Shown: positions 46,018 to 64,000 of the stretch, one piece after another | Layout: the number at the start of each line of letters is the position of its first letter | Position numbering within the stretch: position 1 is the first letter of the stretch | Assembly: GCF_009789575.1 (NCBI RefSeq) | Contig: NZ_CP046908.1 | Span: 1,736,001 to 1,800,000 of the forward strand | Length of the DNA: 64,000 bases | Direction of reading: 5' to 3' | From: Stappia indica | GTDB taxonomy: Bacteria; Pseudomonadota; Alphaproteobacteria; Rhizobiales; Stappiaceae | The notes under the pieces: model-generated | Database searches by the model: none | Told to the model about the DNA's origin: nothing | Seen by the model: the letters and a program-made list of their open reading frames with translations, nothing else | Position numbers and translations under genes: made by a program

Positions 46018-46133
46018 CCCGGCCGGCCCTGCCGGGGGCCGCAAACACGGCGAAAAACCCCGCTGCGCCCGCCACATGGACGCGGGGCGGCGCGCATATG
46101 AGTGCGCATCCCGGCCGCGGCGGAACGGCGCAG

Positions 46134-46154
46134 GCTATAGGGCTGCGCAATAGC
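46134..46154 (+). promoter_or_regulatory. 21-bp itaconate-locus motif, copy 1
   Basis: This copy of G-N-Y-ATAGR-N5-GCAATAGC ends 78 bases before the ATG at 46233. The outer arms GCTAT-N11-ATAGC are inverted, with the T-N11-A spacing of LysR sites. Two further copies lie at 51821 and 61007. Confidence 0.65.
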
Positions 46155-46232
46155 TCCGTGCATGCAAAGATATTTCCGGCCGGCCGCCGGACCTGCGATT
46201 TTGCGGCAAGCCCGAATGTCTCAGGAAACACC

Positions 46233-47414
46233 ATGAACGCCTTCGATCCGACAGCCGAATACAGTGCCATCCGCGACGGTGTCGCCAAGGTCTGCGCCGG
46301 GTTCCCCGGCGAGTACTGGCGCGACCTGGATGCGCGCCGCGCCTATCCCAAGGATTTCGTCGACGCGCTGATCCGCGAAGGCTATCTCGCCGCGATGATC
46401 CCGGAGGAGTATGGCGGCTCGGGCCTCAACCTGTCGGCCTCTGCCGTGATCCTGGAAGAGATCCACCGCAACGGCTGCAACGCCGCCGCCTGCCACGCGC
46501 AGATGTACACGATGGGCACGGTGCTGCGGCACGGCAGCCCCGAGCAGAAGCAGCAATACCTGCCCGGCATCGCCGACGGCACGCTGCGCCTGCAGGCCTT
46601 CGGCGTGACCGAGCCGACCAGCGGCACCGACACGCTGGCGCTGAAGACGACGGCAAAGCGCGACGGCGACGACTACATCGTCAACGGCCAGAAGATCTGG
46701 ATCTCCCGCGCCGAGCACTCCGACCTGATGGTGCTGCTGGCCCGCACGACGCCGCGCGACCAGGTGAAGTCGAAGACCGACGGCCTGTCGGTGTTCCTCA
46801 TCGACCTGCGCGAGCTGAAGGGCAACGGCGTCGAGATCCGCCCGATCCGCACGATGATCAACCACGCGACGACGGAGATCTTCTTCGACAACGCGCGCAT
46901 CCCAGCGTCCAGCCTGATCGGCGAGGAAGGCAAGGGCTTCCGCTACATCCTGTCGGGCATGAATTCCGAGCGCATCCTGATCGCCGCCGAGTGCATCGGC
47001 GATGCCAAGTGGTTCATCGAGAAGGGCTCCAACTACGCCAAGGAGCGGGTGATCTTCGGCGCCCCGATCGGCCAGAACCAGGGCGTGCAGTTCCCGCTTG
47101 CCCGCGCCTATGCGCACATGATGGCGGCCGAGGCCATCGTCTACCGCGCCGCCGCGATGTACGATGCCGGCCACAATCCGGGCGTGGAGGCGAACAGCGC
47201 CAAGATGCTGGCCGCCGATGCCAGCTGGGAAGCGGCCGAGGCCTGCCTGCAGACCCATGGCGGCTTCGGCTTCGCCGAGGAATACGACGTGGAGCGCAAG
47301 TTCCGCGAGGCGCGGCTCTACCAGGTGGCGCCGATCTCCACCAACCTGATCCTGTGCTTCATCGCCGAGCAGGTGCTCGGCCTGCCGAAATCCTACGGGG
47401 CCCCGAAGGCATGA
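46233..47414 (+). CDS. Acyl-CoA dehydrogenase family protein of the itaconate-type locus
   Basis: This 393-residue flavoprotein has the acyl-CoA dehydrogenase layout: FGVTEPTSGTDT (FAD-binding), KIWISRAEHSD, ERILIAAECIGDAKWFIEKG and QTHGGFGFAEEYDVERKFREARLYQVAP. The usual catalytic-base motif YEGT is replaced by VAPIST, so the enzyme may use another base or catalyse something other than simple dehydrogenation. It corresponds in position and style to PA0879 of Pseudomonas aeruginosa. The downstream MmgE/PrpD gene overlaps by 4 bases. Confidence 0.88.
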   Translation: MNAFDPTAEYSAIRDGVAKVCAGFPGEYWRDLDARRAYPKDFVDALIREGYLAAMIPEEYGGSGLNLSASAVILEEIHRNGCNAAACHAQMYTMGTVLRHGSPEQKQQYLPGIADGTLRLQAFGVTEPTSGTDTLALKTTAKRDGDDYIVNGQKIWISRAEHSDLMVLLARTTPRDQVKSKTDGLSVFLIDLRELKGNGVEIRPIRTMINHATTEIFFDNARIPASSLIGEEGKGFRYILSGMNSERILIAAECIGDAKWFIEKGSNYAKERVIFGAPIGQNQGVQFPLARAYAHMMAAEAIVYRAAAMYDAGHNPGVEANSAKMLAADASWEAAEACLQTHGGFGFAEEYDVERKFREARLYQVAPISTNLILCFIAEQVLGLPKSYGAPKA

Positions 47415-48730
47415 CGCTGATCGACCGCATCCTCGACCTTGCCATGTTGCCCGCCGGCGAGTTGCCGGCCGGCGCGCTCGCCATGGCCCGCTTCTCGCTG
47501 TTCGACTGGCTGGTCTGCGGGCGGGCCGGCATCGATGAGCCGCTGGCCGGCAAGCTGCGCCAGCTCGCGGACGAGGAAGGCGGCCGCGGCACGGCCTCGG
47601 TCTTCGGCGGCGCGCCCGCCCCGGCGCGCATGGCCGCGCTGGTCAACGGCGCAACGAGCCACGCGCTCGACTACGACGACACCCATTTCGGCCATATCGG
47701 CCATACCTCCGTCGGCATCTATCCGGCCGCCCTTGCCGCCGGCGAGACGGTCGGCGCCAGCGCGCGCGCCGTGGTCGAGGCGTTTCTGGTCGGCGCGGAA
47801 GCCTCGGTGCGCATCGGCATGGCGCTGGGGTCCATCCATTACAATCGCGGCTTCCACCAGACGGCGACAGCCGGCGCCTTCGGCGCGGCGATTGCCGCAG
47901 GGCGCCTCTTCGGCCTGACCCGCGACCAGATGCGGGTTGCCATCGGGCTTTGCGCCACCCGCGCCTCCGGCCTCAAGTCGCAGTTCGGCACCATGGGCAA
48001 GCCGTACAATGCGGGCATCGCCGCCGCCAATGGCGTCGAATGCGCAAGGCTCGCCGCCCTCGGCTTCACCTCCGCCGACGACGGCCTGATGAACGCGCAA
48101 GGCTTCATCCCCACCCATTCCGACAAGCCCGATCCGGAGGCCGCCTGGCAGTCGCCGCCGCCGGAGACGTTCCTGTTCGAGGACATCAAGTACAAGCTGC
48201 ATGCCTGCTGCCACGGCACCCATGCGATGATCGAGGCGCTGCGCACGGTGCGGGCGGAGGACGGCATCGGCATCGGCGATGTCGAGGCGATGGTGCTGCA
48301 CACCAACCCGCGCTGGCTGTCGGTCTGCGACGTCAAGGCGCCGCGCACCGGGCTGGAGGTCAAGTTCAGCTACAACTGGCTGGCCGGCATGGTGCTGGAG
48401 GATCGCGATACCGCGCGCGACGACACCTATACCGACACGCTGGCGACCGACGCCGGTCTTGCCGCCTTTGCCCCGCGCATCACCGTCGACGGCGACCCGG
48501 CCCTGACCGACATGCAGGCCAAGGGCCTGCTCCGGCTGAAGGACGGGCGCAGCATCGCCTTCTCGCACGATCTTGCCCGCCCACTCGGCGAGGCGGAGCT
48601 GTCCGCCGGGCTCACCGCCAAGGCGACGGCGCTGCTCGGCGAAGAGGGCGAACGGCTGCGGCAGGCGGTCGAGAAACTCGACACGCTTACCGCCGCCGAC
48701 CTCGGCGCCCTGGTGGGAGCACGGGCATGA
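47411..48730 (+). CDS. MmgE/PrpD family protein
   Basis: This 439-residue protein belongs to the family of 2-methylcitrate dehydratase and cis-aconitate decarboxylase. Seen are FSLFDWLVCGRAG, the active-site region NGATSHALDYDDTHFGHIGHTS, LCATRASGLKSQFGTMGKPYNAG and KYKLHACCHGTHAMIEAL. The ATGA overlap with the acyl-CoA dehydrogenase gene indicates coupling. A homologue (PA0881) is part of the Pseudomonas itaconate locus; its reaction there is not settled, but the family suggests handling of C5/C6 tricarboxylate-like substrates. Confidence 0.87.
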   Translation: MTLIDRILDLAMLPAGELPAGALAMARFSLFDWLVCGRAGIDEPLAGKLRQLADEEGGRGTASVFGGAPAPARMAALVNGATSHALDYDDTHFGHIGHTSVGIYPAALAAGETVGASARAVVEAFLVGAEASVRIGMALGSIHYNRGFHQTATAGAFGAAIAAGRLFGLTRDQMRVAIGLCATRASGLKSQFGTMGKPYNAGIAAANGVECARLAALGFTSADDGLMNAQGFIPTHSDKPDPEAAWQSPPPETFLFEDIKYKLHACCHGTHAMIEALRTVRAEDGIGIGDVEAMVLHTNPRWLSVCDVKAPRTGLEVKFSYNWLAGMVLEDRDTARDDTYTDTLATDAGLAAFAPRITVDGDPALTDMQAKGLLRLKDGRSIAFSHDLARPLGEAELSAGLTAKATALLGEEGERLRQAVEKLDTLTAADLGALVGARA

Positions 48731-49548
48731 GCGACTATGCGGAATGGATCGGCAAGCAGCGCCGGGTGAGCGAGACGCTCGACCGCGAGCTGCTTGAGCG
48801 TTACCGCGCGACTCTGTCAGGCATGCTGTGGCAGACCGACGTGCCGGCCGGCGTGCACTGGTGCCTGGCGCCCGACGTGGTCGAGCCGGCGGATCTCGGC
48901 CGCGACGGCCATCCGCGCACCGGCATCTTCCTGCCGGCACTCCCCCTGCCCCGGCGCATGTGGGCGGGCGGCCACCTGGAATACCGCAAGGCGTTTTCGC
49001 CCGGCGACGAGGTGACCCGCGTGACGACGATCCGCGACGTGACCTTCAAGCAGGGTCGCAGCGGGCCGCTCGGCTTCGTCACGCTGGACCATGTCTACGA
49101 GGTGGCGGGCGAGGCCCATGTCGTCGAGCGCCACGACATCGTCTATCGCGAGGACCCCAAGCCCGGCGCCGGCACCGCGCCGCAGCCGGCAGAAGACTGG
49201 CAGGCGCTGGCGCGCTGGCAGGTCACCCCGACGCCGACGCTGCTGTTCCGCTATTCGGCGCTGACCTTCAACGGCCACCGCATCCACTACGACCAGCCCT
49301 ACGCCACCGGCGTCGAAGGCTATGACGGGCTGGTGGTGCACGGGCCGCTGCAGTCGATCTGGATGCAGAACCTTGCCGCCTCGCTGCTCGGCAAGTTGCC
49401 GGGAGCCTTCACCTATCGCGGGTTGTCGCCGCTGACCTGCGGCCGGCCGGTGAGCGTCGAAGCGCGCGAAGGCGAGGACGGCGCCCTGGAGCTGCGCGTG
49501 CGGCGCGACGAGGATGGGGTTGTCACCATGCAGGCGACCGCCCGGTAG
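48727..49548 (+). CDS. ich: HTD2-type MaoC hydratase, itaconyl-CoA/mesaconyl-C4-CoA hydratase-like
   Basis: This 273-residue double-hotdog protein has an N-terminal FAS1-like dehydratase half (FLPALPLPRRMWAGGHLEY) and a C-terminal half with the hydratase segment SALTFNGHRIHYDQPYATGVEGYDGLVVHGPL. Length and motifs match itaconyl-CoA hydratase (PA0878) and mesaconyl-C4-CoA hydratase. In itaconate breakdown it would form citramalyl-CoA for the CitE-type lyase at 60020. The start overlaps the previous gene (ATGA). The exact acyl-CoA is inferred. Confidence 0.82.
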   Translation: MSDYAEWIGKQRRVSETLDRELLERYRATLSGMLWQTDVPAGVHWCLAPDVVEPADLGRDGHPRTGIFLPALPLPRRMWAGGHLEYRKAFSPGDEVTRVTTIRDVTFKQGRSGPLGFVTLDHVYEVAGEAHVVERHDIVYREDPKPGAGTAPQPAEDWQALARWQVTPTPTLLFRYSALTFNGHRIHYDQPYATGVEGYDGLVVHGPLQSIWMQNLAASLLGKLPGAFTYRGLSPLTCGRPVSVEAREGEDGALELRVRRDEDGVVTMQATAR

Positions 49549-49557
49549 GAAAGAGCT

Positions 49558-50496
49558 TCAGCCCTCGATCAGGTTGCCTTCCCAGATGCCGCGCCGCACG
49601 AGATCGCGGGCGACCTCCAGCGTGATCTGCTCGACCGCGCGGCAGGCCCGGCTCATCGAGCGGGCCGGCTTGCTGACCAGATAGACCGGGCGCGAGATCG
49701 TCGGCTCGACGATGGGCGCCTTGAGCAGCTCGCCGCGGGCGACGAAGTCGTGCACGGCGGCGGGGGCGAAGATCGTGTGGCCGGAGCCGCGCGCCACCAG
49801 CTCCTTGATCTGGGTCATCGCGTCCATCTCGATGACGACGTTGAGATTGACGTCGCAGGCGGCGGCGTGCCGCTCGATGGTCTTGCGCAGCCCGTGCGAA
49901 ACGCCGGGCAGGATCATCTCCAGCTTCTCCAGCGCATGCATCGGCACCGGCGTGCCCGGCGGCGTGTCGAGCGGCCATGTGTCCGGCGCGGAGAAGAAGA
50001 ACAGCTGCTCGTCCAGCACATGGATGATGCGGAAATGCTCGACCTTCTCCAGGTCGTAGATGAAGCCGATATCGACGGTCTCGTCCTCGATCCAGCTCTT
50101 GATGTAGCCGCTCATCGCCTCGATGGCGCGCAGCCGCACGTCCGGCAGCTCGACCCGCACGGTCTCCGCCAGCGGCACCGACATCACCATCGACACCGAC
50201 GGCGGCATGCCGAAGCCGACCTTGCCGCGAATGCCGCCGCCAAGGTCGCGCATCTCCGAGATGCAATGCTCCATGCTGGCGCAGATCTCGCGGGCATGGC
50301 GCACCAGCAGGTGGCCCTCCTCGGTCAGCATCGTGCCGCGCGGCGAGCGCTCGACCAGCTGTACGCCGAGCTCCTGCTCCATGCGCTGGACGTATTGCGA
50401 CAGGGACGGCTGGGCGACGCCCAGGACCTGCGCCGCCGCGGAGAGCGACGGCGCCTCGGAAATGGCGATGAAATAGCGAAGGTGGCGAATGTCCAT
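49558..50496 (-). CDS. LysR-family regulator of the itaconate-type locus
   Basis: This 312-residue protein has the helix-turn-helix MDIRHLRYFIAISEAPSLSAAAQVLGVAQPSLSQYVQRME and a typical effector domain (IRGKVGFGMPPSVSMVMSVPLAETV onward). It lies beside the hydratase gene, as PA0877 does in Pseudomonas, and 19 bases downstream of the alcohol dehydrogenase gene with which it is co-oriented. It is one of two candidates for binding the 21-bp motif, the other being the LysR at 62924. Confidence 0.9.
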   Translation of the reverse strand: MDIRHLRYFIAISEAPSLSAAAQVLGVAQPSLSQYVQRMEQELGVQLVERSPRGTMLTEEGHLLVRHAREICASMEHCISEMRDLGGGIRGKVGFGMPPSVSMVMSVPLAETVRVELPDVRLRAIEAMSGYIKSWIEDETVDIGFIYDLEKVEHFRIIHVLDEQLFFFSAPDTWPLDTPPGTPVPMHALEKLEMILPGVSHGLRKTIERHAAACDVNLNVVIEMDAMTQIKELVARGSGHTIFAPAAVHDFVARGELLKAPIVEPTISRPVYLVSKPARSMSRACRAVEQITLEVARDLVRRGIWEGNLIEG

Positions 50497-50515
50497 GGGG
50501 AAGGTTAGCCGGTTT

Positions 50516-51640
50516 TCAGCCGATCTCCACCACCTGGCGGATCGCCGAGCCGTCCTCCAGCCGGTCCATCGCCAGGTTGATGTCGGCAAGCGGCAGGCGG
50601 TGGCTCAGCATCTTTTCCACCGGCAGCAGGCCGCGGCGATGCAGCGCGAACATGCGCGGCAGGTCGCGCTGCGGCACGCAGGAGCCGATATAGCTGCCCT
50701 TCAGCGAGCGCTCCTCGGCGACCAGCTTCAGCGCGTTGAGCGCCATGCGCGAATCCGGGTGCGGCAGGCCGGCGGTGACGGTGGTGCCGCCGCGCCGGGT
50801 GATGTCGTAGGCGGTCTCCAGCGCCCGCACCGAGCCGGCCAGCTCGAACGCATAGTCGACGCCGCCGCCTGTGAGATCGCGCACCGCCTCGACGACGCCC
50901 TCGCCCGCCTTCACCGCGTCGGTCGCGCCCATCTGGCGGGCGACGTCGAGCTTGTTCTCGAACGGGTCGATGGCGACGATCTGCCCGGCCCCGGCCGCCA
51001 CCGCGCCGAGGATCGCGGCCATGCCGACGCCGCCGATGCCGACCACCGCGACCTTGGAGCCCGGCTTGATATGGGCGGTGTTGAACACCGCACCGGCGCC
51101 CGTCAGCATGGCGCAGGAAAACAGCGTCGAGATGTGCGGGGCGATGTCCTGGTCGACCTTGACCAGCGACTGGCGCGCGACGACCGCGTGGCTGGCGAAG
51201 GCGGAGATGCCGACGTGATGGTGCACGGGCCGCCCGTCCATCGACAACCGGCGGTGGCCGGTCATCAGCTCGCCGACGCCGTGATGCTTGGCCGCCTTTT
51301 CGCACAAGGCCGGCCGGCCTTCCGCACACGGGGTGCAGCGGCCGCAGCCGGGCGCGAAGATGCACACGACATGATCGCCGGGCGCAAGGTCGTCGACGCC
51401 CGCGCCAACCTCCTCGACATAGCCGGATGCCTCATGGCCGAGCACCATCGGCAGCGGGCGCGGCCGGGTGCCGTTGATCACCGACAGGTCGGAATGGCAG
51501 ACGCCGGCGGCGGCGATGCGGATCAGCACCTCGCCGGGACCGGGCGGCGCCAGCTCGACCTCGCGCACGATCAGCGGCTTTTCCGCCGCGTAGTTGCCCT
51601 TGACCTCGCCCCGCTCCAGCACCGCCGCCGTGATCTTCAT
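50516..51640 (-). CDS. Zinc-dependent alcohol dehydrogenase
   Basis: This 374-residue medium-chain dehydrogenase has catalytic-zinc residues in AAGVCHSDLSV and GHEASGYVEEVG, the structural zinc cysteines in APGCGRCTPCAEGRPALC, and the NAD motif VVGIGGVGMAA. Length and pattern fit the class III-like/long-chain MDR group. It probably oxidises an alcohol to the aldehyde used by the dehydrogenase at 57693. It is divergent from the cyclase operon across a 280-bp regulatory region. Confidence 0.88.
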   Translation of the reverse strand: MKITAAVLERGEVKGNYAAEKPLIVREVELAPPGPGEVLIRIAAAGVCHSDLSVINGTRPRPLPMVLGHEASGYVEEVGAGVDDLAPGDHVVCIFAPGCGRCTPCAEGRPALCEKAAKHHGVGELMTGHRRLSMDGRPVHHHVGISAFASHAVVARQSLVKVDQDIAPHISTLFSCAMLTGAGAVFNTAHIKPGSKVAVVGIGGVGMAAILGAVAAGAGQIVAIDPFENKLDVARQMGATDAVKAGEGVVEAVRDLTGGGVDYAFELAGSVRALETAYDITRRGGTTVTAGLPHPDSRMALNALKLVAEERSLKGSYIGSCVPQRDLPRMFALHRRGLLPVEKMLSHRLPLADINLAMDRLEDGSAIRQVVEIG

Positions 51641-51714
51641 GTCTCCACCCTTTTGCTCTTGTTCGCTCTTGAGGCCGCCGCCGCCGCAGCACGGCGTTGC
51701 CCGTTTGCTTGCAA

Positions 51715-51726
51715 TGGTGCACCCTG
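51715..51726. repeat. TGGTGCACCCTG direct repeat, copy 1
   Basis: This 12-bp sequence, containing the palindrome GGTGCACC, recurs exactly at 51861-51872. The two copies flank the adh/cyclase divergent promoter region, one nearer each gene, and may be operator sites. Confidence 0.5.
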
Positions 51727-51820
51727 AGGGCCCTGCCGGCCGGCGGATCGCACCCCGCTGTCGGGCGGATGCTAGCGGCAAACAGGCCCGAAGACAGGCC
51801 TAATCGGCTTTTTGGCCTCG

Positions 51821-51841
51821 GTCATAGGTTTTTGCAATAGC
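51821..51841 (+). promoter_or_regulatory. 21-bp itaconate-locus motif, copy 2
   Basis: This copy matches G-N-Y-ATAGR-N5-GCAATAGC and ends 79 bases before the cyclase ATG at 51921. The left arm is GTCAT and the right arm ATAGC, with T-N11-A spacing. Confidence 0.65.
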
Positions 51842-51844
51842 CGA

Positions 51845-51872
51845 GCACCAAGCAAATTATTGGTGCACCCTG
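51845..51872. promoter_or_regulatory. Inverted repeat plus second TGGTGCACCCTG copy
   Basis: GCACCAA (51845-51851) and TTGGTGC (51860-51866) are 7-bp inverted arms around 8 bases. They overlap TGGTGCACCCTG (51861-51872), the second copy of the 51715 repeat. This looks like a second operator next to the 21-bp motif. Confidence 0.5.
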
Positions 51873-51920
51873 TCGGCAATACCTAGGCTTCTTCATCTCA
51901 CATGCTTTGGGAGGAAAGCC

Positions 51921-52886
51921 ATGAGGGTCTTCAACTGCACTGCGGCGCTCGCCGGGCTTGCGCTCGTCGTCGCCACCAGCCTTGCCCAGGCCGACAATCA
52001 CAATCACAAATGGACGGAATCGCGCTGGGGCAAGGACGACCAGATCGGGTCGGCGAACCTGATGACGCCGGAGCGCGTCAAGCTCGCCGCCGAACTCGTC
52101 ACCGCCGGCAAGGTCTACAGCCTCGGCATGATCGTCGGCAGCGACACGCCGGCATTCCCGCCGCGCAGCCTGTCCGTGACCGTGCTCCAGCCCAACCAGA
52201 TCACCAATAGCGGGCTGGGCGAAAACGCCTTCACCTACAACGACGACATCTTCATGGGCTGGCTCGGCATCGGCCCGCAGATCGACGGTCTCGGTCATGC
52301 CGGCATCGACCATGTCTATTACAACGGCCACAAGGCCGGCGACTTCGCCAAGGCCGCGGGCCTGACCGAACTCGGCCTGCACAACCTGCCCGGCCTCGTC
52401 GGCCGCGGCGTGCTGCTCGACATGGCCAAGTTCTACGGCGTCGACATGATCGAGGAAGGCAAGGCCTACACCGCCGACGACGTCAAGGCCGCCGCCGCCC
52501 AGCAGGGCGTCGAGCTGCGCGAGGGCGATGTCGTGCTGTTCAACTCCAACTGGATGAACCTGCTCGACGGGCCGAACGCGGATCCCAAGCGCTTCGGCGC
52601 GGCGGAGCCGGGCCTCGGCGTCAGCGGCGCCGAATATCTCGCCGAGCTGGGCGTGATGGCGGTGGGTGCCGACACCTGGGGCATGGAGGTCGTTCCGGCC
52701 GAGGTCGAGGGCGAGGCATTCCGCGCCCACCAGATCCTGCAGCCGCAGAACGGCATCTACATCCTGGAGAACATGGATACCCGCGAACTGGCGAAGGACG
52801 AGGCTTACGAGTTCCTCTTCGTGCTCGGCCAGGCCCGCCTCAAGGGCGCGGTGCAGATGATCATCAACCCGATCGCGATCCGCTGA
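51921..52886 (+). CDS. Exported cyclase-family (kynurenine formamidase-like) hydrolase
   Basis: This 321-residue protein has a clear signal peptide (MRVFNCTAALAGLALVVATSLAQA), so it acts in the periplasm. The mature part is a cyclase/formamidase fold of the metal-dependent hydrolase family. The usual HxGTHxDxPxH is present only in part, as GIGPQIDGLGHAGIDH, keeping the Asp and last His. Family members hydrolyse amides or lactones. It is the first gene of the operon before the Liv-type importer, suggesting it releases or opens the substrate before uptake. GGGAGGAAAG precedes the ATG. Confidence 0.82.
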   Translation: MRVFNCTAALAGLALVVATSLAQADNHNHKWTESRWGKDDQIGSANLMTPERVKLAAELVTAGKVYSLGMIVGSDTPAFPPRSLSVTVLQPNQITNSGLGENAFTYNDDIFMGWLGIGPQIDGLGHAGIDHVYYNGHKAGDFAKAAGLTELGLHNLPGLVGRGVLLDMAKFYGVDMIEEGKAYTADDVKAAAAQQGVELREGDVVLFNSNWMNLLDGPNADPKRFGAAEPGLGVSGAEYLAELGVMAVGADTWGMEVVPAEVEGEAFRAHQILQPQNGIYILENMDTRELAKDEAYEFLFVLGQARLKGAVQMIINPIAIR

Positions 52887-52948
52887 CCGGGCAAACGGAC
52901 ACGCGGGCGGCACGCAATCGCCCGCGGCTACTCGAAGGGAGTGAAACC

Positions 52949-54235
52949 ATGCGGAAATTCCTGCTCACAACGGCAGCGATCCTCGCTGCCCCGATCGCCG
53001 CGCTGGCGGCGGACAAGCCGGCCGAGCTCAAGGTCGGCGTCACCACGTTCCTCACCGGCCCGGCCTCCGTGTTCGGCGTGCCGGCGCGCGATGCGGCCGA
53101 GATCATCGTCGGCAAGCTCAATGCCGAAGGCGGCATCGGCGGCGTGCCGGTCGCCCTGTCCTTCATCGACGAGGGCGCCGGCGCCGAGGCGCTGACCACC
53201 GAGTTCCGCCGCCAGGTCGAGGGCGGTGCCCACGCCATGATGGGCGCGATCTCCTCCGGCAACTGCCAGACGCTCGCCCCGCTGGCCGAGGACCTCAAGG
53301 TCCTGAACCTGATGTGGGACTGCGGCACCCAGCAGATCTTCGAGAAGAACGACTACAAGTACGTCTTCCGCACCCAGGCCAACGCCACGCCGGAAATGCT
53401 CGCCACCGTGCTCTACCTGCTGAAGGTGAAGCCGGACTTCAAGACCATCGCCGTCGTCAACCAGGACTACGCCTGGGGCCGCGACAGCTGGCAGATCTTC
53501 TCCGCCGCGCTGAAGGCCCTGAAGCCGGACGTCGAGGTGGTCGGCGAGTTCTTCCCCAAGTTCGGCGCCGCCGACTTCTCCACCGAGATCTCCCGCCTGC
53601 AGGCGATGCAGCCCGACGTCATCCTGTCGACCTCCTGGGGCGGCGACCTCGACACGTTCATCCAGCAGGCGGCCCAGCGCGGCCTGATGAACTCCTCGAC
53701 CTTCGTCATCCCGCTGGCCGAAAGCTCCCTGGAGCGTCTCGGCTCGACCCTGCCGGCCGGCCATATCGTCGGCGCGCGCGGCGACCATTACTTCCTGCAT
53801 CCGGACCGTCGCGACGACGCGGACTTCAAGGAGTTCATGGCAGCCTTCGAGGAAAAGACCGGCGCCCACGCGATCTACCCGGTCTTCCACATGTCGCAGG
53901 CGCTCGCCGCGCTGAAGGCGGCCTACGAGAAGGCGATCGCGGCCAAGGGCGGCGAATGGCCGGAAGAGGACGAGATCATCGCGGCCTTCGAGGGCCTGAC
54001 CTTCCAGGGTCTCGGCCGTGAGGTCACCATCCGCGAGGACAACCAGGGCATCGAGGCCCAGCTCCTCGGCATGAGCGTCCAGACCGGCGACTATCCCTTC
54101 GCCACGCTGGAAAACATCATGATCTTCGACGGCGAAGCGCTGACCACCCCGGTCGGGCAGGAGTCGGTCGAGTGGGTCAGCAAGCTCACGCCGGAATATG
54201 CCGCGGGCGTGAAGGTCGACACCTACGAAAAATAA
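52949..54235 (+). CDS. ABC substrate-binding protein, branched-chain amino acid (Liv) type
   Basis: This 428-residue periplasmic binding protein has a signal peptide ending ALAA and the type I fold (LKVGVTTFLTGPASVFGVPARDAAEIIV, AMMGAISSGNCQTLAPLAEDLKV, FKTIAVVNQDYAWGRDSWQIF). Proteins of this class from catabolic operons often bind aromatic or dicarboxylic acids as well as amino acids. It has GAAGGGAG before the ATG. Given the operon, a C5-type dicarboxylate or a derivative is the likely ligand, by inference. Confidence 0.9.
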   Translation: MRKFLLTTAAILAAPIAALAADKPAELKVGVTTFLTGPASVFGVPARDAAEIIVGKLNAEGGIGGVPVALSFIDEGAGAEALTTEFRRQVEGGAHAMMGAISSGNCQTLAPLAEDLKVLNLMWDCGTQQIFEKNDYKYVFRTQANATPEMLATVLYLLKVKPDFKTIAVVNQDYAWGRDSWQIFSAALKALKPDVEVVGEFFPKFGAADFSTEISRLQAMQPDVILSTSWGGDLDTFIQQAAQRGLMNSSTFVIPLAESSLERLGSTLPAGHIVGARGDHYFLHPDRRDDADFKEFMAAFEEKTGAHAIYPVFHMSQALAALKAAYEKAIAAKGGEWPEEDEIIAAFEGLTFQGLGREVTIREDNQGIEAQLLGMSVQTGDYPFATLENIMIFDGEALTTPVGQESVEWVSKLTPEYAAGVKVDTYEK

Positions 54236-54306
54236 GAAGCGCCGGGACAGCACGAGCGGAGCAAGGCAGGCGTGCCGCGTTCCGCTCCCCCGGCCTTCCT
54301 CCCGGC

Positions 54307-54339
54307 CCGCCCCGGACGGTGACCCGTCCGGGGCGGTTT
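54307..54339 (+). terminator. Intra-operon GC-rich hairpin after the Liv-type binding protein
   Basis: CCGCCCCGGACGG (54307-54319) and CCGTCCGGGGCGG (54324-54336) form a 13-bp perfect stem with a 4-base loop followed by TTT. It may partly terminate or protect the binding-protein mRNA. The rest of the 165-bp gap before livH holds nothing else I can support. Confidence 0.55.
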
Positions 54340-54400
54340 CCGAACACGCCGCCGCGGCACGCCTGCGGATCGTTCCGCCCATTGACCTGAATGGACGACC

Positions 54401-55306
54401 ATGAACCTCACCATCTTCCTTCTGGCCCTGTTCGACGGCATCGCCTATGCGGCCCTCGTCTTCAGTGTCGCCGTGGGGCTCACGCTGATCTTCGGCGTGA
54501 TGCGCATCCTCAACGTCGCGCACGGCTCGCTCTATGCGGTCGGCGCGTATCTGACGGCCACGCTCACCGGCTATGCGCTGGCGCTCGGTTTCGCGCCGCT
54601 GCTGGCCTTCCCGCTGATGATCGTCTCGGCGGTGCTGGTCGGCGTGCTCGTCGGCGGCCCCATCGAATGGCTGCTGCTGCGCCGGATCTACAACAAGCCG
54701 GAAGTGCTCCAGCTCCTGGTGACCTTCGCGGTCTTCATGATCCTGGAGGACGTGCAGCGGCTGGTCTGGGGCACCCAGCCCTATTTCCAGGCCTCGGCGC
54801 TGCAGGCGCTCGGCATGGTGAAGGTGTTCGGCGTCAACTACACCGTCTACCAGCTGATCCTGCTGCCGCTGCTGGCCTTGACGCTGCTGGTGGGCCTGCG
54901 CTTCTTCCTGCGCCACACCATCCTCGGCAAGCTGATCCTGGCGACCACCGAGGACCGCGAGGCGGCCCAGTCCATCGGCATCGACGCCGACAAGGTGTTC
55001 CTGGTGACCTTCATCGTCGGCGCGGCCCTGGCCGGGCTCGGCGGTGCGCTGGCCTCGCCCACCACCTCGATCCTGCCGGGCATGGGCGCGGACATGATCG
55101 TGCTGTCCTTCGCCGTGGTGGCGACGGCCGGTCTCGGCCAGATCGAGGGCGCGGCCTTCACCGCGCTGCTGATCGGGCTCGGCCGCTCCTTCGCGGTCTA
55201 TGTCTGGCCGGAGACGGCGGTGCTCGTCCCCTATCTCATCATGCTGATCGTCCTGCTGGTGCGCCCGGAAGGGCTGTTCGGCAGCCCGACCGCGCGCAAG
55301 ATCTGA
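54401..55306 (+). CDS. livH: Branched-chain amino acid-type ABC permease, LivH
   Basis: This 301-residue membrane protein has about eight helices and the LivH regions VAVGLTLIFGVMRILNVAHGSLYAVGAYL and LILATTEDREAAQSIGIDADKVFLVTFIVGAALAGLGG. It forms the translocation path with LivM encoded 10 bases downstream. Confidence 0.93.
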   Translation: MNLTIFLLALFDGIAYAALVFSVAVGLTLIFGVMRILNVAHGSLYAVGAYLTATLTGYALALGFAPLLAFPLMIVSAVLVGVLVGGPIEWLLLRRIYNKPEVLQLLVTFAVFMILEDVQRLVWGTQPYFQASALQALGMVKVFGVNYTVYQLILLPLLALTLLVGLRFFLRHTILGKLILATTEDREAAQSIGIDADKVFLVTFIVGAALAGLGGALASPTTSILPGMGADMIVLSFAVVATAGLGQIEGAAFTALLIGLGRSFAVYVWPETAVLVPYLIMLIVLLVRPEGLFGSPTARKI

Positions 55307-55316
55307 GGAGGAACGG

Positions 55317-56270
55317 ATGACCTTTCGTCTGGCCATTCCGGCCCTTCTCGTCGCGCTCGTCGCCGCGATCCCCTTCGCCGCGCCGCAGCTCCAGCTCCTG
55401 ATGAACCTGGCGCTCGCCAAGGGCATCGCCGTCGTCGGCGTGACTGTGCTGCTGCGCGCCGGCCAGGTGTCCTTCGGCCACGCGCTCTACTTCGCCATCG
55501 CCGCCTATGCCGCCGCCTTCCTGTCGGCCTCCATGCCCGGCGCGGACCTCATTCTGGTGCTCGTCGTCGCGGTCGCCGGCGCGGTGCTGTCCGGCGTCAT
55601 CGTCGGCCTGTTCGTGGTGCGCTACCGCGGCATCTTCTTCGGCATGCTGAACCTTGCCTTCTCGATGATCTTCTGGTCGATCCTGGAGAAGTTCTACCAC
55701 TACACGGGCGGCGCCGACGGCATCCGCCTGCCGCGCCCCACCGTGTTCGGCATGGCACTGGAGCGCGGTCCGTTCGAGCTGATCATGTTCTACCTGTCGG
55801 TGGCCCTGGTGCTCCTGCTCGGCTGGTTCACGATGCGCTGGTTCGCCTCGCCCGCCGGCCAGATCTTCCAGACCATCAAGACCAACGAGACCCGCCTGCA
55901 ATATCTCGGCGTCTCGCCGCAGCGCGCGCTGCTGTCCGGCTACATCCTGTCGGCGGCCCTGTGCGGCACCGGCGGCGTCATCATGGGCATCGTCCAGGGC
56001 GTCGTGACGCCGGAATTCGCCTGGTGGATCCGTTCGGGCGAGATGGTCTTCATCGCCGTGCTCGGCGGTGCCGGCTCGGTTGCCGGCGCCTTCGTCGGCG
56101 CGATCATCTACGAGACCATCCGCACCTACGCCTCGGCCTTTGCCGGCGACGTGTGGCAGATGGTGCTCGGCGGCTTCCTGCTCGTCATCATCCTGTTCGC
56201 CCCCAAGGGCGTGATCGGCATCTACGACGCAGCGCTTGCCCGCCTGACCGGCAAAGGGAGGTCGGAATGA
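55317..56270 (+). CDS. livM: Branched-chain amino acid-type ABC permease, LivM
   Basis: This 317-residue membrane protein has the LivM regions GIAVVGVTVLLRAGQVSFGHALYFAIAAYAAAF, KTNETRLQYLGVSPQRALLSGYILSAALCGTGG and MVFIAVLGGAGSVAGAFVGAIIYETI. GAGGA precedes its ATG. The stop overlaps livG by 4 bases. Confidence 0.93.
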   Translation: MTFRLAIPALLVALVAAIPFAAPQLQLLMNLALAKGIAVVGVTVLLRAGQVSFGHALYFAIAAYAAAFLSASMPGADLILVLVVAVAGAVLSGVIVGLFVVRYRGIFFGMLNLAFSMIFWSILEKFYHYTGGADGIRLPRPTVFGMALERGPFELIMFYLSVALVLLLGWFTMRWFASPAGQIFQTIKTNETRLQYLGVSPQRALLSGYILSAALCGTGGVIMGIVQGVVTPEFAWWIRSGEMVFIAVLGGAGSVAGAFVGAIIYETIRTYASAFAGDVWQMVLGGFLLVIILFAPKGVIGIYDAALARLTGKGRSE

Positions 56271-57016
56271 GCGAGATCCTTCTCGAAGCCCGCAACCTGC
56301 AGATCAGCTTCGGCGGCGTGGTCGCCGCCGACGACGTGTCGCTCGCCATCGAGCGGGGCAAGAACCTTGCGATCATCGGCCCGAACGGCGCCGGCAAGAC
56401 GACGTTCCTGAACATCTGCACCGGCTGGATCAAGCCGACCAAGGGCAAGGTCTATTTCGAGGGACGGGACGTGACGCCGCTGCCGCCACGCCGCATCGTC
56501 CGCCTCGGCGTTGCCCGCGCCTTCCAGATCCCGCAGCTGTTCACCGAGCACACCGCTCTGGAGAACCTGCTGATCTCGGCCGCCGCCCGCGAGCAGCTGC
56601 GCCATCCGCTGCAGGACCTGCACCGCATCCGCGAACGGGCCGAAATGCTGCACCTGCTCGACATGGTCGGCTGCGCCGATGTCGCCGACCGGCTGGTGGT
56701 GGAGCTCTCGGAAGGCCAGCGCAAGCTGGTCGACATCGCCGTGGCGCTGGCCCTGCGGCCGAAACTGCTGCTGATGGACGAGCCGACCTCGGGCGTCGCC
56801 TCCTCGGAGAAGTTCAAGATCATGGAAATCCTGGTCAAGGCGCTCGCCGAGGCGAAGGTGACGAGCGTCTTCGTCGAGCACGACATGGGCATCGTCTCGC
56901 GCTACGCCGACGAGGTGGCCGTGTGGGCCGCCGGCCGGCTGCAGATGCAGGGATCGCCGGAGGAAATCCTGCGCCATCCCGACGTGATCCGCGACGTCAT
57001 CGGGGAGGCCGTGTGA
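56267..57016 (+). CDS. livG: Branched-chain amino acid-type ABC ATPase, LivG
   Basis: This 249-residue ATPase has Walker A GPNGAGKTT, Q-loop region RAFQIPQLFTEHTALENLL, Walker B LLLMDEPTSGVA and switch SVFVEHDMGIV. The signature motif is LSEGQRK instead of LSGGQ, a change seen in some LivG proteins. It sits between livM and livF with 4-base and 1-base overlaps. Confidence 0.93.
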   Translation: MSEILLEARNLQISFGGVVAADDVSLAIERGKNLAIIGPNGAGKTTFLNICTGWIKPTKGKVYFEGRDVTPLPPRRIVRLGVARAFQIPQLFTEHTALENLLISAAAREQLRHPLQDLHRIRERAEMLHLLDMVGCADVADRLVVELSEGQRKLVDIAVALALRPKLLLMDEPTSGVASSEKFKIMEILVKALAEAKVTSVFVEHDMGIVSRYADEVAVWAAGRLQMQGSPEEILRHPDVIRDVIGEAV

Positions 57017-57693
57017 TGCTGGAACTGAGCAATGTCGGCGCCTCGATCGGCATCATCCCGATCCTGCGCAATCTCGACGTCACCATCTCCGCCGCCGAGA
57101 CGGTGGCCTTGATCGGCCGCAACGGCGCCGGCAAGACCACCTTGCTGCGCTCGATCATGGGCTTCACCACGGTCACCGGCAGCATCCGCTTCGAGGGCGA
57201 GGACATTACCGGCCTGTTGCCGGCAAAACGTCCGGCCTTAGGCATCGGCTACGCGCCGGAAGATCGCCGCCTGTTCTCCGCCTTCACCGTGGAGGAGAAC
57301 ATCCTGCTGCCGGCGCAGGTCGCCAAGCTGGATGCGGCCGAGACCAAGCGGCGGCTCGACCGGGTCTACCACATCCTGCCCGAGTTGAAGACCATGGCCG
57401 GGCGGCCGGCCGGCAACGTCTCCGGCGGCCAGGGCAAGATGGTCGCGCTCGGCCGCGCGCTGATGCTGGGCACCCGCCTCATCATGCTCGACGAGCCGTT
57501 CCAGGGCCTCGCCCCGGCGCTGGCCCTGCGCTATGCCGAGGCGCTGAAGGCGCTGCGCGACGCCGACCGGACGGTGACGCTGATCATCACCGAATCCAAC
57601 CCCTCCCTGCTGCGCGGCTTCGCCAGCCGCACGCTCCTGATCGAGCGCGGGGAAGTCTCCGAAAGCTCGCTCGAGCACGAAAGGACCCACTGA
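57016..57693 (+). CDS. livF: Branched-chain amino acid-type ABC ATPase, LivF
   Basis: This 225-residue ATPase has Walker A GRNGAGKTT, YAPEDRRLFSAFTVEENILL, signature VSGGQGKMVALGRAL and Walker B LIMLDEPFQGLAP. The switch region is LIITESN, lacking the usual His, as is common for LivF. It is the shortest of the Liv genes and overlaps the aldehyde dehydrogenase start by one base, tying the importer to the enzyme. Confidence 0.92.
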   Translation: MLELSNVGASIGIIPILRNLDVTISAAETVALIGRNGAGKTTLLRSIMGFTTVTGSIRFEGEDITGLLPAKRPALGIGYAPEDRRLFSAFTVEENILLPAQVAKLDAAETKRRLDRVYHILPELKTMAGRPAGNVSGGQGKMVALGRALMLGTRLIMLDEPFQGLAPALALRYAEALKALRDADRTVTLIITESNPSLLRGFASRTLLIERGEVSESSLEHERTH

Positions 57694-59147
57694 TGACTGC
57701 CACAAACGTCCCCCTGCCCCGCGCCCTCAACCTGATCGACGGGAAATGGGTGCCGGCGGCCTCCGGCAAGGAGATGGACGTGCGCTCGCCCATCGACGGC
57801 GAGGTGTTCACCCGCATCGCCGACAGCGGCCCCGAGGATGTCGATGCCGCGGTCGCGGCCGCCCGCGCCGCCTTCGACGGCGGTCCCTGGTCGAAGCTGA
57901 CGGCGGCCGAGCGCGGCCGGCTGATGGTCCGCCTCGGCAACCGCATCCTGGAGGAGGCCGAGGCGCTCGCCCGGCTCGAGACCATGGACAACGGCAAGCC
58001 GATCAAGCAGTCGCGCGCCGACATGATCGCAACAGCCCGCTACTTCGAATATTACGGCGGCGCCGCCGACAAGGTGCATGGCGAGGTCATTCCCTTCCTC
58101 AATGGCTACAACGTGCAGGTGCTGCGCGAGCCGCATGGCGTCACCGGCCACATCATCCCGTGGAACTACCCGGCGCAGATGTTCGGCCGCTCGATCGCCC
58201 CGGCGCTGGCCATGGGCAATGCCACCGTTCTGAAGCCGGCGGAAGACGCCTGCCTGACGGCGCTGCGCATCGGCGAGCTGGCGATGGAGGTCGGCTTCCC
58301 GGCCGGCGCCATCAACATCGTCACCGGCCGCGGCGAGGTCGCCGGCAAGGCCCTGTCCGAGCACCGCCAGGTCGACTTCCTGTCCTTCACCGGCTCGCCG
58401 GAAGTCGGCGTGCTGATCCAGACGGCGGCGGCGCGCAACTTCATCGGCTGCACGCTGGAGCTCGGCGGCAAGTCGCCGCAGATCATCTTCGACGATGCCG
58501 ATCTCGACGCGGTCTATCCGGTGCTGGTCAACGCCATCATCCAGAACGGCGGCCAGACCTGCTCGGCCGGCTCGCGCGTGCTGCTGCAGCGCGGCATCTA
58601 CGACAAGGTGATGGCCGAGTTGAAGACCCGCTTCGAGGCGGTCGCGGCCTCCGATTCCGGCGAGGACGCGGTGCTCGGGCCGCTGATCTCGGCCCGCCAG
58701 AAGAAGCGGGTGGAGACCTATATCGCCGAGGCCGATGCGCCGCTGGTCGCCCGCGGCACGGTGGCCAAGGGCTCGCCGGAAGGCGGCTACTACGTCGCCG
58801 CCGCCCTGTTCGGCCCCTGCGACCCGAACTCGAAAATCGCCCAGGAGGAAGTGTTCGGCCCCGTGCTGTGCGCCATCCCCTTCGACGACGAGGCGGAGGC
58901 GATCCGCATCGCCAACGGCACCGAATACGGCCTGGTCGCCGGCATCTGGACCCGCGACGGCGGCCGCCAGCAGCGCGTCGCCAAGGCGATGCATTGCGGC
59001 CAGGTCTTCATCAACGGCTACGGCGCGGGCGGCGGCATCGAGCTGCCCTTCGGCGGCATCCGCAAGTCCGGCCACGGCCGCGAGAAGGGCTTCGCGGCGC
59101 TGCACGAATTCTCCCACATCAAGACCGTCGTCCACAATCACGGCTGA
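57693..59147 (+). CDS. Aldehyde dehydrogenase
   Basis: This 484-residue NAD(P)-dependent enzyme has the catalytic glutamate in LELGGKSPQIIF, the nucleophile cysteine in GQTCSAGSR, NAD-binding GHIIPWNYPAQM and FTGSPEVG, and the C-terminal PFGGIRKSGHGREKG. It oxidises an aldehyde to the acid. With the alcohol dehydrogenase at 50516 it could turn an alcohol-bearing substrate into a carboxylate that enters the CoA pathway. A 2-aminomuconate semialdehyde dehydrogenase role is possible but less supported by context. Confidence 0.9.
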   Translation: MTATNVPLPRALNLIDGKWVPAASGKEMDVRSPIDGEVFTRIADSGPEDVDAAVAAARAAFDGGPWSKLTAAERGRLMVRLGNRILEEAEALARLETMDNGKPIKQSRADMIATARYFEYYGGAADKVHGEVIPFLNGYNVQVLREPHGVTGHIIPWNYPAQMFGRSIAPALAMGNATVLKPAEDACLTALRIGELAMEVGFPAGAINIVTGRGEVAGKALSEHRQVDFLSFTGSPEVGVLIQTAAARNFIGCTLELGGKSPQIIFDDADLDAVYPVLVNAIIQNGGQTCSAGSRVLLQRGIYDKVMAELKTRFEAVAASDSGEDAVLGPLISARQKKRVETYIAEADAPLVARGTVAKGSPEGGYYVAAALFGPCDPNSKIAQEEVFGPVLCAIPFDDEAEAIRIANGTEYGLVAGIWTRDGGRQQRVAKAMHCGQVFINGYGAGGGIELPFGGIRKSGHGREKGFAALHEFSHIKTVVHNHG

Positions 59148-59160
59148 GGACAGCAAAGAC

Positions 59161-59910
59161 ATGCGACTTCAAGGAAAGACCACTCTCGTCACGGGCGCTG
59201 CCTCCGGCTTCGGCAAGGGCATCGCCGAGACCTATGTGCGCGAAGGCGCCAAGGTGGCGATCGTCGACCTGAACGAGGAGGGCGCGAAGGCCGTTGCCGC
59301 CGAGCTCGGCGATGCGGCCATCGCCATCAAGTGCGACGTCTCCAAGGCCGAGGACGTGGCGGCAGCCGTGGCGAAGACCTGCGAGGCCTTCGGCTCGCTC
59401 GACATCGTCGTCAACAATGCCGGCTGGACCAACCCGAACCGGCCGCTGATGGAGACGGACGAGGCGACCTTCCGCAAGATCTACGACATCAACGTGCTGT
59501 CGATCTTCCACATGACCAAGACCTGCGTGCCGGTGTGGCGCGAGCAGGGCGCCGGCGTGATGATCAATGTCGGCTCGACCGCCGGCATCCGTCCGCGTCC
59601 GGGCCTGACCTGGTACAACTCGTCGAAGGGCGCGGTGAACCTGATGACCCGCAGCCTTGCCGTGGAGCTCGCCCCCGACAAGATCCGCGTCAACGGCATC
59701 GCCCCGGTGATGGGCGTCACCGGCCTGCTGGAGCAGTTCATGGGCATGCCGGACACGCCGGAGAACCGGGCGAAGTTCCTCGCCACCATCCCGCTCGGCC
59801 GCCTGTCGCAGCCGCGCGACATCGCCAATGCCGCGCTCTACCTTGCCTCGGACGAAGCCGACTTCATCACCGGCGTCATCCTCGAGGTCGATGGCGGCCG
59901 CACCATCTGA
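59161..59910 (+). CDS. Short-chain dehydrogenase (glucose 1-dehydrogenase-like SDR)
   Basis: This 249-residue SDR has the glycine motif TGAASGFGKG, the NAD-selecting Asp in VAIVDLNEE, NNAGW, catalytic Ser in NVGSTAGI and Tyr-x-x-x-Lys in WYNSSKGAV. It ends the operon begun at 51921. It most likely oxidises or reduces a hydroxy- or keto-acid of the pathway; the substrate is not evident. Confidence 0.88.
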   Translation: MRLQGKTTLVTGAASGFGKGIAETYVREGAKVAIVDLNEEGAKAVAAELGDAAIAIKCDVSKAEDVAAAVAKTCEAFGSLDIVVNNAGWTNPNRPLMETDEATFRKIYDINVLSIFHMTKTCVPVWREQGAGVMINVGSTAGIRPRPGLTWYNSSKGAVNLMTRSLAVELAPDKIRVNGIAPVMGVTGLLEQFMGMPDTPENRAKFLATIPLGRLSQPRDIANAALYLASDEADFITGVILEVDGGRTI

Positions 59911-59950
59911 ACAAAAGGCAGCCCGGGGTCCCCTGCCCCACACCTGAAAA

Positions 59951-60006
59951 CGCCCGTGCCATTGGCACGGGCGTCTTTTTTTGGGCCGATGGCACGGGCG
60001 TCTTTT
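59951..60006 (+). terminator. Intrinsic terminator with duplicated 3' arm
   Basis: CGCCCGTGCC-ATT-GGCACGGGCG (59951-59973) forms a 10-bp stem followed by TCTTTTTTT. The 3' arm and T-run are repeated at 59991-60006 (GGCACGGGCG then TCTTTT), 27 bp away, with no matching second 5' arm. It terminates the cyclase-to-SDR operon before the convergent lyase gene. Confidence 0.88.
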
Positions 60007-60019
60007 TTGCGAAACCTGT

Positions 60020-60862
60020 TCAGCCGGCGGCGGAGGCGGCGCGCGCCAGGATCTGCCGGGCCTTGGCGATCACCGGCGCATCGACCATCGCCCCGTCGAC
60101 GGCGACCGCCGCAGCACCCCCTTCCACCGCCGCAAGCACCCGCTGCGCCCACTCGCACTCGGCCTCAGACGGCGCAAAGCCGCGCCGCGCCGGGGCGATC
60201 TGCGCCGGATGGATGATCAGCTTGCCGGCAAAGCCCATTTCCACCGCATGGCGGCAGTCGCCGGCAATCGCCTCCTCGTCCTTGAGCGCGGTCGTCACGC
60301 CGTCGATGGGGCCGCACTGGCCGGCAAGGCGCGCGGCCATCGCCAGGGCGAAACGGGCCGGGCGCAGCACCTCGCGCGCGTGCGCCATGCCGAGATCGGC
60401 GGCAAAATCGATGGAGCCGAAGGCGAGCCGGGCGCTCATCCCCGCAACCTCACCGGCATTGGCAAGGCCGCGGGCGCTTTCCACCAGCGCGATCACCGGC
60501 AGGCCGGTCGCCTCCGCAACGCCGGCGCAATCGGCCCCCGTCTCCGCCTTGGGCAGGACGATACCGGCAAGGCCCGCAATGCCGGCGCAGGCGGCAAGAT
60601 CCGCCGCGTGCCAGGGCGTGCCGCTGGCATTGACGCGCACCAGGATGCTCGCCGTGCCGACCAGCGGCGCCAGCGCCTCGGCAAGCCCTGCACGCGCCGC
60701 CTCCTTGACGGCGGGCGCGACCGCGTCCTCCAGGTCGACGATGACCGCGTCGGCGCCGGCGGCGACCGCCTTGGCGAAGCGCTCCGGCCGGTCGCCGGGC
60801 ACGAAAAGCGGCAGGGTGATGCGGTCGACCTTCGCGGTCGTCTCGTTCGAATGCGTGGTCAT
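60020..60862 (-). CDS. CitE-like CoA ester lyase, citramalyl-CoA lyase candidate
   Basis: This 280-residue TIM-barrel protein of the HpcH/HpaI-citrate lyase beta family has LFVPGDRPERFAKA, DAVIVDLEDAV, the metal-binding Glu in ALVESARG and Asp in AFGSIDFAADLGM, and KLIIHPAQI. In itaconate degradation the equivalent enzyme (PA0883, Ccl) splits citramalyl-CoA to acetyl-CoA and pyruvate. It is divergent from the CoA-transferase gene. Malyl-CoA or methylmalyl-CoA lyase activity cannot be excluded from sequence alone. Confidence 0.83.
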   Translation of the reverse strand: MTTHSNETTAKVDRITLPLFVPGDRPERFAKAVAAGADAVIVDLEDAVAPAVKEAARAGLAEALAPLVGTASILVRVNASGTPWHAADLAACAGIAGLAGIVLPKAETGADCAGVAEATGLPVIALVESARGLANAGEVAGMSARLAFGSIDFAADLGMAHAREVLRPARFALAMAARLAGQCGPIDGVTTALKDEEAIAGDCRHAVEMGFAGKLIIHPAQIAPARRGFAPSEAECEWAQRVLAAVEGGAAAVAVDGAMVDAPVIAKARQILARAASAAG

Positions 60863-61006
60863 GATGGGTCCGCCGGATGGGTTGGTCAGAAGTCGCAGGC
60901 GCCCAGAAAAGCGCGTGCGGCGCGCGCCTGCCAATAGCGAATTGCGCCCGCCCTCATTGATTGCGGCTATGGCAGGGGGTAAGGGCGGGGCGGGAATGGC
61001 CGCCGG

Positions 61007-61027
61007 GGCATAGATTGCGGCAATAGC
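61007..61027 (+). promoter_or_regulatory. 21-bp itaconate-locus motif, copy 3
   Basis: This copy of G-N-Y-ATAGR-N5-GCAATAGC ends 77 bases before the CoA-transferase ATG at 61105. The arms are GGCAT and ATAGC with T-N11-A spacing. A weaker reversed match (GCCATAG, then TCAAT) lies at 60953-60973, facing the lyase gene. Confidence 0.65.
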
Positions 61028-61104
61028 TGCGGGCGCTCCCCTCTATTACTCCCGATGCCGCGCTTCGGGCATACTGGCGCCACTTACAGGGAGAAGCTTT
61101 GAAA

Positions 61105-62920: not shown

Positions 62921-62923
62921 GGC

Positions 62924-63859: not shown

Positions 63860-64000
63860 GCATCAATTATCGCAAAATAAGCACTTCTGACAACAAAGAT
63901 CCTGGGACACTCTTGCAAAGGGTACAGGTCCGCCGTCGGTGCGGGCGCCGGAGGAGCGGCGTCCAGGCGGAAGGACCGGCCCGAGATCGCTGCCCGCCAA

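Follow-up and report, generated by a model that had tools for sequence, protein, structure and literature searches.

An inverted-repeat box with TATT at a fixed 16-bp distance marks four predicted promoters of a probable LysR-controlled catabolic regulon in Stappia indica

According to PMC4834489, promoters under LysR control conventionally carry two sites, a T-N11-A palindrome near -65 and another that extends beyond the -35 box; the contacts at the latter are termed non-conserved sequences there. PMC12290011 and PMC9875883 describe an itaconate/methylsuccinate cluster, ich-mcd-mmgE-ict-ccl, in Pseudomonas aeruginosa and Cupriavidus necator, where the acyl-CoA dehydrogenase and the MmgE/PrpD protein act on methylsuccinate. 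The present analysis concerns a box repeated upstream of several operons in a catabolic gene cluster of Stappia indica; the window is the whole stretch of 64,000 nucleotides analysed (assembly GCF_009789575.1, contig NZ_CP046908.1, positions 1,736,001 to 1,800,000). The boxes are very probably the primary recognition sites of LysR1, a regulator encoded inside the cluster, at four promoters of a single catabolic regulon that is split over several units. Its predicted units are acyl-CoA dehydrogenase (ACD)-MmgE-MaoC; cyclase-Liv-aldehyde dehydrogenase (ALDH)-short-chain dehydrogenase (SDR), with the divergent alcohol dehydrogenase (ADH)-LysR1 unit; CoA-transferase; and lyase. The boxes, the first gene of each unit and the proposed regulator are the following:

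46134..46154, plus strand: LysR-type box (RBS), GCTAT-N11-ATAGC, before the ACD-MmgE-MaoC operon; kept in six congeners, variant in L064/L065
46171..46174, plus strand: TATT at N16, overlapping a predicted -35 (46173-46178); predicted -10 at 46197-46202 and start at ~46209
46233..47414, plus strand: ACD, first gene of target operon 1 (Pfam; 92-99% identity in six congeners)
49558..50496, minus strand: LysR1, proposed regulator, HTH_1 and substrate domain (Pfam; co-inheritance; neighbours in other genera)
51821..51841, plus strand: LysR-type box, GTCAT-N11-ATAGC, before the cyclase-Liv-ALDH-SDR operon, between it and the divergent ADH-LysR1 unit
51858..51861, plus strand: TATT at N16; predicted -35 at 51860-51865, -10 at 51884-51889 and start at ~51896
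51921..52886, plus strand: putative cyclase/hydrolase (PF04199), first gene of target operon 2 (Pfam)
60020..60862, minus strand: HpcH/HpaI-type lyase, target unit 4 (best NCBIfam match RipC_Ccl, below its cut-off)
60933..60936, minus strand: TATT at N16 of the lyase promoter; predicted -35 at 60934-60929, -10 at 60910-60905 and start at ~60898, overlapped by a terminator-like match
60953..60973, minus strand: fourth LysR-type box, GCCAT-N11-ATGAG, facing the lyase
61007..61027, plus strand: LysR-type box, GGCAT-N11-ATAGC, before the CoA-transferase gene
61044..61047, plus strand: TATT at N16; predicted -35 at 61046-61051, -10 at 61070-61075 and start at ~61082
61105..62238, plus strand: family III CoA-transferase, target unit 3 (Pfam)

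The preliminary description had reported 21-bp sites at 46134-46154, 51821-51841 and 61007-61027 on the plus strand, and coordinates, strands and pattern match were all confirmed; direct counts again gave 13 identical columns of 21, with 78, 79 and 77 bases separating the sites from the ATG codons at 46233, 51921 and 61105. The asymmetric consensus GNYATAGR-N5-GCAATAGC was rejected as the true shape. Since both arms are visible in diverged copies (GTTAT-N11-ATGAC upstream of the cyclase in G001 and GCCAT-N11-ATGGC upstream of ACD in L065, from a second genus), the box reads as a near-palindromic inverted repeat, GYYAT-N11-ATRRC, which has the T-N11-A arrangement known from LysR-type sites. The T-N11-A spacing described earlier is present, and the inverted repeat containing it is matched at 9-10 of 10 arm positions in all four promoters. 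TATT follows the box at exactly 16 bp in the three original promoters. The weaker reversed copy at 60953-60973, described as facing the lyase gene, proved to be real and has the same spacing (box 60973-60953, TATT 60936-60933, both on the minus strand), being upgraded to a fourth site.

The exact pattern has three perfect matches in the 5,116,759-bp genome, all in the cluster; as it was derived from these three sites, their matching follows by construction and the informative result is that the genome holds no fourth. Elsewhere there is one match at one mismatch and 19 at two mismatches. Up to two mismatches, the whole genome contains 23 matches to the pattern and 19 to its reversed control, so those outside the cluster look like background, and in the 17 examined of these 20 near-matches TATT at N16 is absent from both strands. 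The bipartite pattern (box plus N16-TATT) has four matches in this genome, all inside the cluster, and the relaxed palindrome without TATT has six, three of them outside. A check for frequent occurrence at random positions, proposed in the preliminary description, found both exact and bipartite patterns to be infrequent genome-wide. The relaxed palindrome also occurs as the sequence GACATAATCCGCAGAAATGGC (G000:C1:2508304 and similar places), which lacks N16-TATT, recurs in Stappia genomes whether or not they have the cluster, and may be conserved coding sequence or the site of another regulator. An extra relaxed palindrome with no TATT at N16 lies just downstream of the cluster in one congener (G003:C28:97344-97364).

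An orthologue of ACD was identified in 6 of 13 congeners, together with the surrounding cluster. The alignment of orthologous loci, also proposed earlier, indicates that in the upstream regions of these six the box is retained while the flanks diverge, which does not extend to every distant locus. The bipartite pattern has four matches each in G002, G003, G005, G008 and G012, two in G001 and none in the seven Stappia genomes that lack both LysR1 and the ACD orthologue. It was written after the Stappia promoters had been viewed and its test therefore lies outside Stappia. LysR1 is a protein of 312 amino acids with an N-terminal HTH_1 domain (PF00126, 75 bits) and a C-terminal LysR_substrate domain (PF03466, 102 bits), the architecture of the LysR family. 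All seven Stappia genomes that have the cluster encode it, and the seven that lack the cluster do not (E<=1e-40). The cluster of G003 gave no cyclase match; its cyclase promoter (L053, ~7197 to 7496), with box and TATT retained, stands before the Liv genes.

The test in other genera is based on a search of genome contigs with the LysR1 protein, where the best 80 matches gave 79 loci. The Stappia orthologues L073-L075 were set aside and 76 loci were used, including L151 (Stappia sp. BW2), whose LysR has only 35% identity. Among 105 sites, one per mapped gene, picked by the palindrome alone with TATT disregarded and including backward-read palindromes and near-duplicate orthologues, 44 have a TATT beginning at offset 16, and every other offset accounts for three at most. 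By the strictest rule, applied at any position, 29 of 80 deduplicated sites have TATT at offset 16 and one has it at each of three other offsets (up to 30 bases); the reversed strict rule gave seven sites, one with TATT at offset 15 and none at 16. Bipartite sites are found in 25 of 31 loci with LysR1 identity of at least 65%, 3 of 6 at 55-65%, 4 of 7 at 40-46% and 15 of 32 below 40%, and the loci with such sites include some from Burkholderia. At least two of seven core gene types (ACD, CoA-transferase, MaoC, MmgE, lyase, cyclase and LivJ; matches at E<=1e-20, distant paralogues included) are carried by 54 of the 76 loci, and 38 of these 54 have a bipartite site versus 9 of the 22 with fewer types. 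Two LysR1-family cluster loci, L102 and L118, stand under the titles Oceanobacillus sp. and Bacillus subtilis and are probably mislabelled or contaminated assemblies.

The geometry of the promoters was examined across 77 distinct bipartite sites, which came from 52 of the 82 loci searched and were selected by palindrome and TATT alone. In columns not used in the selection, A occupies position 65 in 71% and T position 69 in 65% of these sites, which are related by descent and hence not independent samples. In a sigma-70 -10 hexamer spanning 64-69, these two positions would correspond to the second and the sixth base. With a -35 at positions 40-45, a spacer of 18 and a start near 76, the palindrome centre would fall at about -65. 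The TATT at N16 overlaps this predicted -35 and could represent -35 bases rather than a LysR contact. A structured RNA element was rejected: no Rfam match reached the gathering threshold in 45800-64000, and the box lies upstream of the predicted start. In the cyclase promoter, a second inverted repeat, GCACCAA-N8-TTGGTGC (51845-51866), overlaps the N16-TATT part and may be the site of another regulator; its right part is retained in L055 and not in L056. The 12-mer TGGTGCACCCTG is present at 51715 (51715-51726) and again at 51861.

Several observations weigh against the proposed bipartite promoter or restrict its reach. The consensus scan of 60800-61120 found no sigma-70 promoter, a terminator-like match (60925-60911, minus strand) overlaps the stretch read as the lyase -35/-10, and the lyase box is off consensus at its last base. 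The relaxed palindrome alone is less specific: across the 14 Stappia genomes it has 55 matches and its control 15, and only 21 of the 55 are cluster sites (22 if one palindrome is read on both strands). In G001 the ACD element reads CATT and the lyase box is doubtful, and the ACD spacing of L064 is off by one. In the sequence available per locus only 47 of the 76 loci carry a bipartite site, and six loci with LysR1 identity of at least 65% have none. Among 199 genomes of the order, no strict bipartite match was found in six relatives with LysR1 at 51-69%; under looser rules the palindrome precedes ACD, CoA-transferase or LivJ in five of these six and N16-TATT is present in only three. Another six genomes of the order have one strict match each (control pattern, three in all); no core gene was found in the 3-kb loci around these matches, one of which has a 26% match to both LysR1 and LysR2 (a second LysR-family protein of the Stappia cluster) and two a 26% match to LysR2. 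The start-codon distance first described as near-constant held in congeners for the cyclase (78-81 bases, five) and the CoA-transferase (77-78, six) and failed for ACD, with gaps of 111-112 in four of six congeners and 75 and 77 in the other two, and for the lyase (87-156); in these counts ties between palindromes were settled in favour of TATT, which slightly favours the bipartite arrangement. The start-codon distance was rejected as the main constant because of the variable ACD and lyase gaps, and the comparisons support motif-N16-TATT-(-10) as the predicted spacing that is best kept.

The preliminary description had pointed to the LysR proteins encoded at 49558 and 62924. Of the two, LysR1 stands, being present wherever the sites are in Stappia, whereas LysR2 is missing from three genomes. 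Control of the boxes by LysR2 (62924-63859), or by both proteins, is very unlikely: LysR2 belongs to the LysR family and its gene lies at the cluster end in the window strain and near the cluster in three congeners, but only four of the seven cluster-bearing Stappia genomes have it at an identity of at least 97%. It is missing (E<=1e-60) from G003, G002 and G001, which retain the boxes (G001 is 89% complete), and two Stappia genomes without the cluster contain a 53% homologue. Across the 79 loci, within 10 kb of LysR1 and after overlap filtering, LysR2 is matched only in L111, at 29%.

Equally improbable is an unrelated or global regulator encoded outside the cluster. Near-palindromes can be used by other transcription factors, the relaxed palindrome occurs elsewhere and LysR1 binding is a prediction; however, the bipartite pattern is absent from the seven congeners without LysR1 and accompanies LysR1 relatives in other genera, including Burkholderia. 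Chance resemblance, or a repeat with no regulatory role, is more improbable still. The pattern was chosen after the sequence had been viewed, yet none of 8000 simulated triples (three 300-bp upstream regions per trial, first-order Markov) had a start-aligned shared site as good, in agreement with the earlier statement that chance was unlikely; moreover, orthologues retain the box while the flanks diverge and the N16-TATT spacing is found in other genera. The reading of the boxes as a LysR1 regulon is backed by the T-N11-A symmetry, the predicted position near -65 and the co-inheritance with LysR1, all drawn from sequence. The earlier claim that the motif unites the ACD, cyclase/Liv and CoA-transferase units is supported and refined to four sites with the lyase. 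The finding is thus somewhat stronger than first stated, as it now covers four promoters that share one LysR box and a second element at a fixed distance, with one likely regulator.

In the proposed mechanism a LysR1 dimer would hold the -65 box and the second dimer of the LysR1 tetramer would contact the TATT/-35 region. An inducer, probably a dicarboxylic acid or a CoA-pathway intermediate of the cluster, would shift this latter contact, and the shifted contact would activate sigma-70 polymerase at promoters with a weak -35. The region between divergent units is a usual place for a LysR site, and since the 51821 site lies between the ADH-LysR1 and cyclase units, autoregulation of LysR1 is possible.

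The remaining genes of the cluster are the following:

47411..48730, plus strand: MmgE/PrpD family protein (Pfam)
48727..49548, plus strand: MaoC-like (FAS1-dehydratase-region) protein, candidate hydratase (Pfam)
50516..51640, minus strand: zinc ADH (Pfam), divergent from the cyclase operon and likely co-transcribed with LysR1; same arrangement in several genera
52949..57693, plus strand: branched-chain-type ABC transporter LivJ, LivH, LivM, LivG, LivF (LivJ by Pfam, the other four named from open reading frame (ORF) reading; gene order conserved)
57693-59147, plus strand: ALDH (named from ORF reading; conserved order)
59161-59910, plus strand: SDR (named from ORF reading; in-frame relatives, the in-frame query having matches in 44 of 87 loci)
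62924-63859: LysR2, LysR-family protein at the end of the cluster (Pfam)

All five enzyme types of the itaconate/methylsuccinate cluster are assigned by Pfam at this one locus: ACD, MmgE/PrpD, MaoC-like, HpcH/HpaI lyase and family III CoA-transferase. They are distributed in three units, each with a box, which is an argument for one regulon independent of the motif. The lyase scores 150.0 bits against RipC_Ccl (NCBIfam), below the cut-off of 375, as do the lyases of the relatives L141, L117 and L094 (142-157 bits), and for this reason the cluster is not filed as itaconate degradation. A C5-dicarboxylate-type substrate and a route of the itaconate/methylsuccinate type are each about as probable as not. 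Such a route would use the CoA-transferase, the acyl-CoA dehydrogenase, the MaoC-like hydratase, a citramalyl-CoA-type lyase and the MmgE isomerase, and would be fed by the Liv importer and the ADH, ALDH, SDR and cyclase enzymes, whose presence suggests a feeder route.

Four separate units and a predicted pathway of about 15 genes are in this way tied to one regulator from sequence alone, and the box and its spacing are testable. We also consider, tentatively and with less than even confidence, that palindrome-N16-TATT represents an ancient and fixed promoter code belonging to a single LysR1 family, perhaps ItcR-like, kept in Alphaproteobacteria and Burkholderia and marking scattered pathway genes. 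If so, the code could reveal the full substrate route in marine bacteria, including an unrecognised feeder (Liv importer, cyclase, ADH, ALDH and SDR) into C5-dicarboxylate catabolism. The most interesting part is that the spacing recurs in distant relatives, though it is not universal; a 16-bp spacing found in several genera offers a clean comparative case of how a LysR activator is placed relative to RNA polymerase.

No publication on this regulon was found by title or abstract start, most subscription literature lying outside the search, and the available parts of PMC7057948, PMC7042172, PMC9637912, PMC5002191 and PMC9615192 give no operator for the LysR1 family. Among solved structures, the two chains listed are OxyR-type, at 78 bits. 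The best NCBIfam match of LysR1 is NAC (nitrogen assimilation control, NF008410; NAC/CynR subgroup) with 159 bits, far below the cut-off of 309, and the context of LysR1 is catabolic rather than one of nitrogen control. The Stappia box also fits ATA-N9-(T/A)AT. The consensus of NAC is ATA-N9-TAT, a string that none of the papers shown by the literature search was seen to carry.

The Pseudomonas and Cupriavidus cluster, as given in PMC12290011 and PMC9875883, has the same five enzyme types, whereas in Stappia these are split over three units and lie beside Liv, ADH, ALDH, SDR and cyclase genes. For the promoters the nearest likeness is with ThnR and its promoters PB, PH and PM, in PMC4834489: there too a primary T-N11-A palindrome is centred near -64/-65, one LysR protein governs several promoters, and downstream lies another conserved region that only loosely resembles the primary site. 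ThnR differs in the regulator, the pathway and the box sequence, and the Stappia promoters have as their second element a TATT at a constant distance of 16 bp, which is found in several genera and in Burkholderia. The Stappia cluster adds a well-supported case to a known mode of control, the separate units of one predicted pathway probably being switched together.

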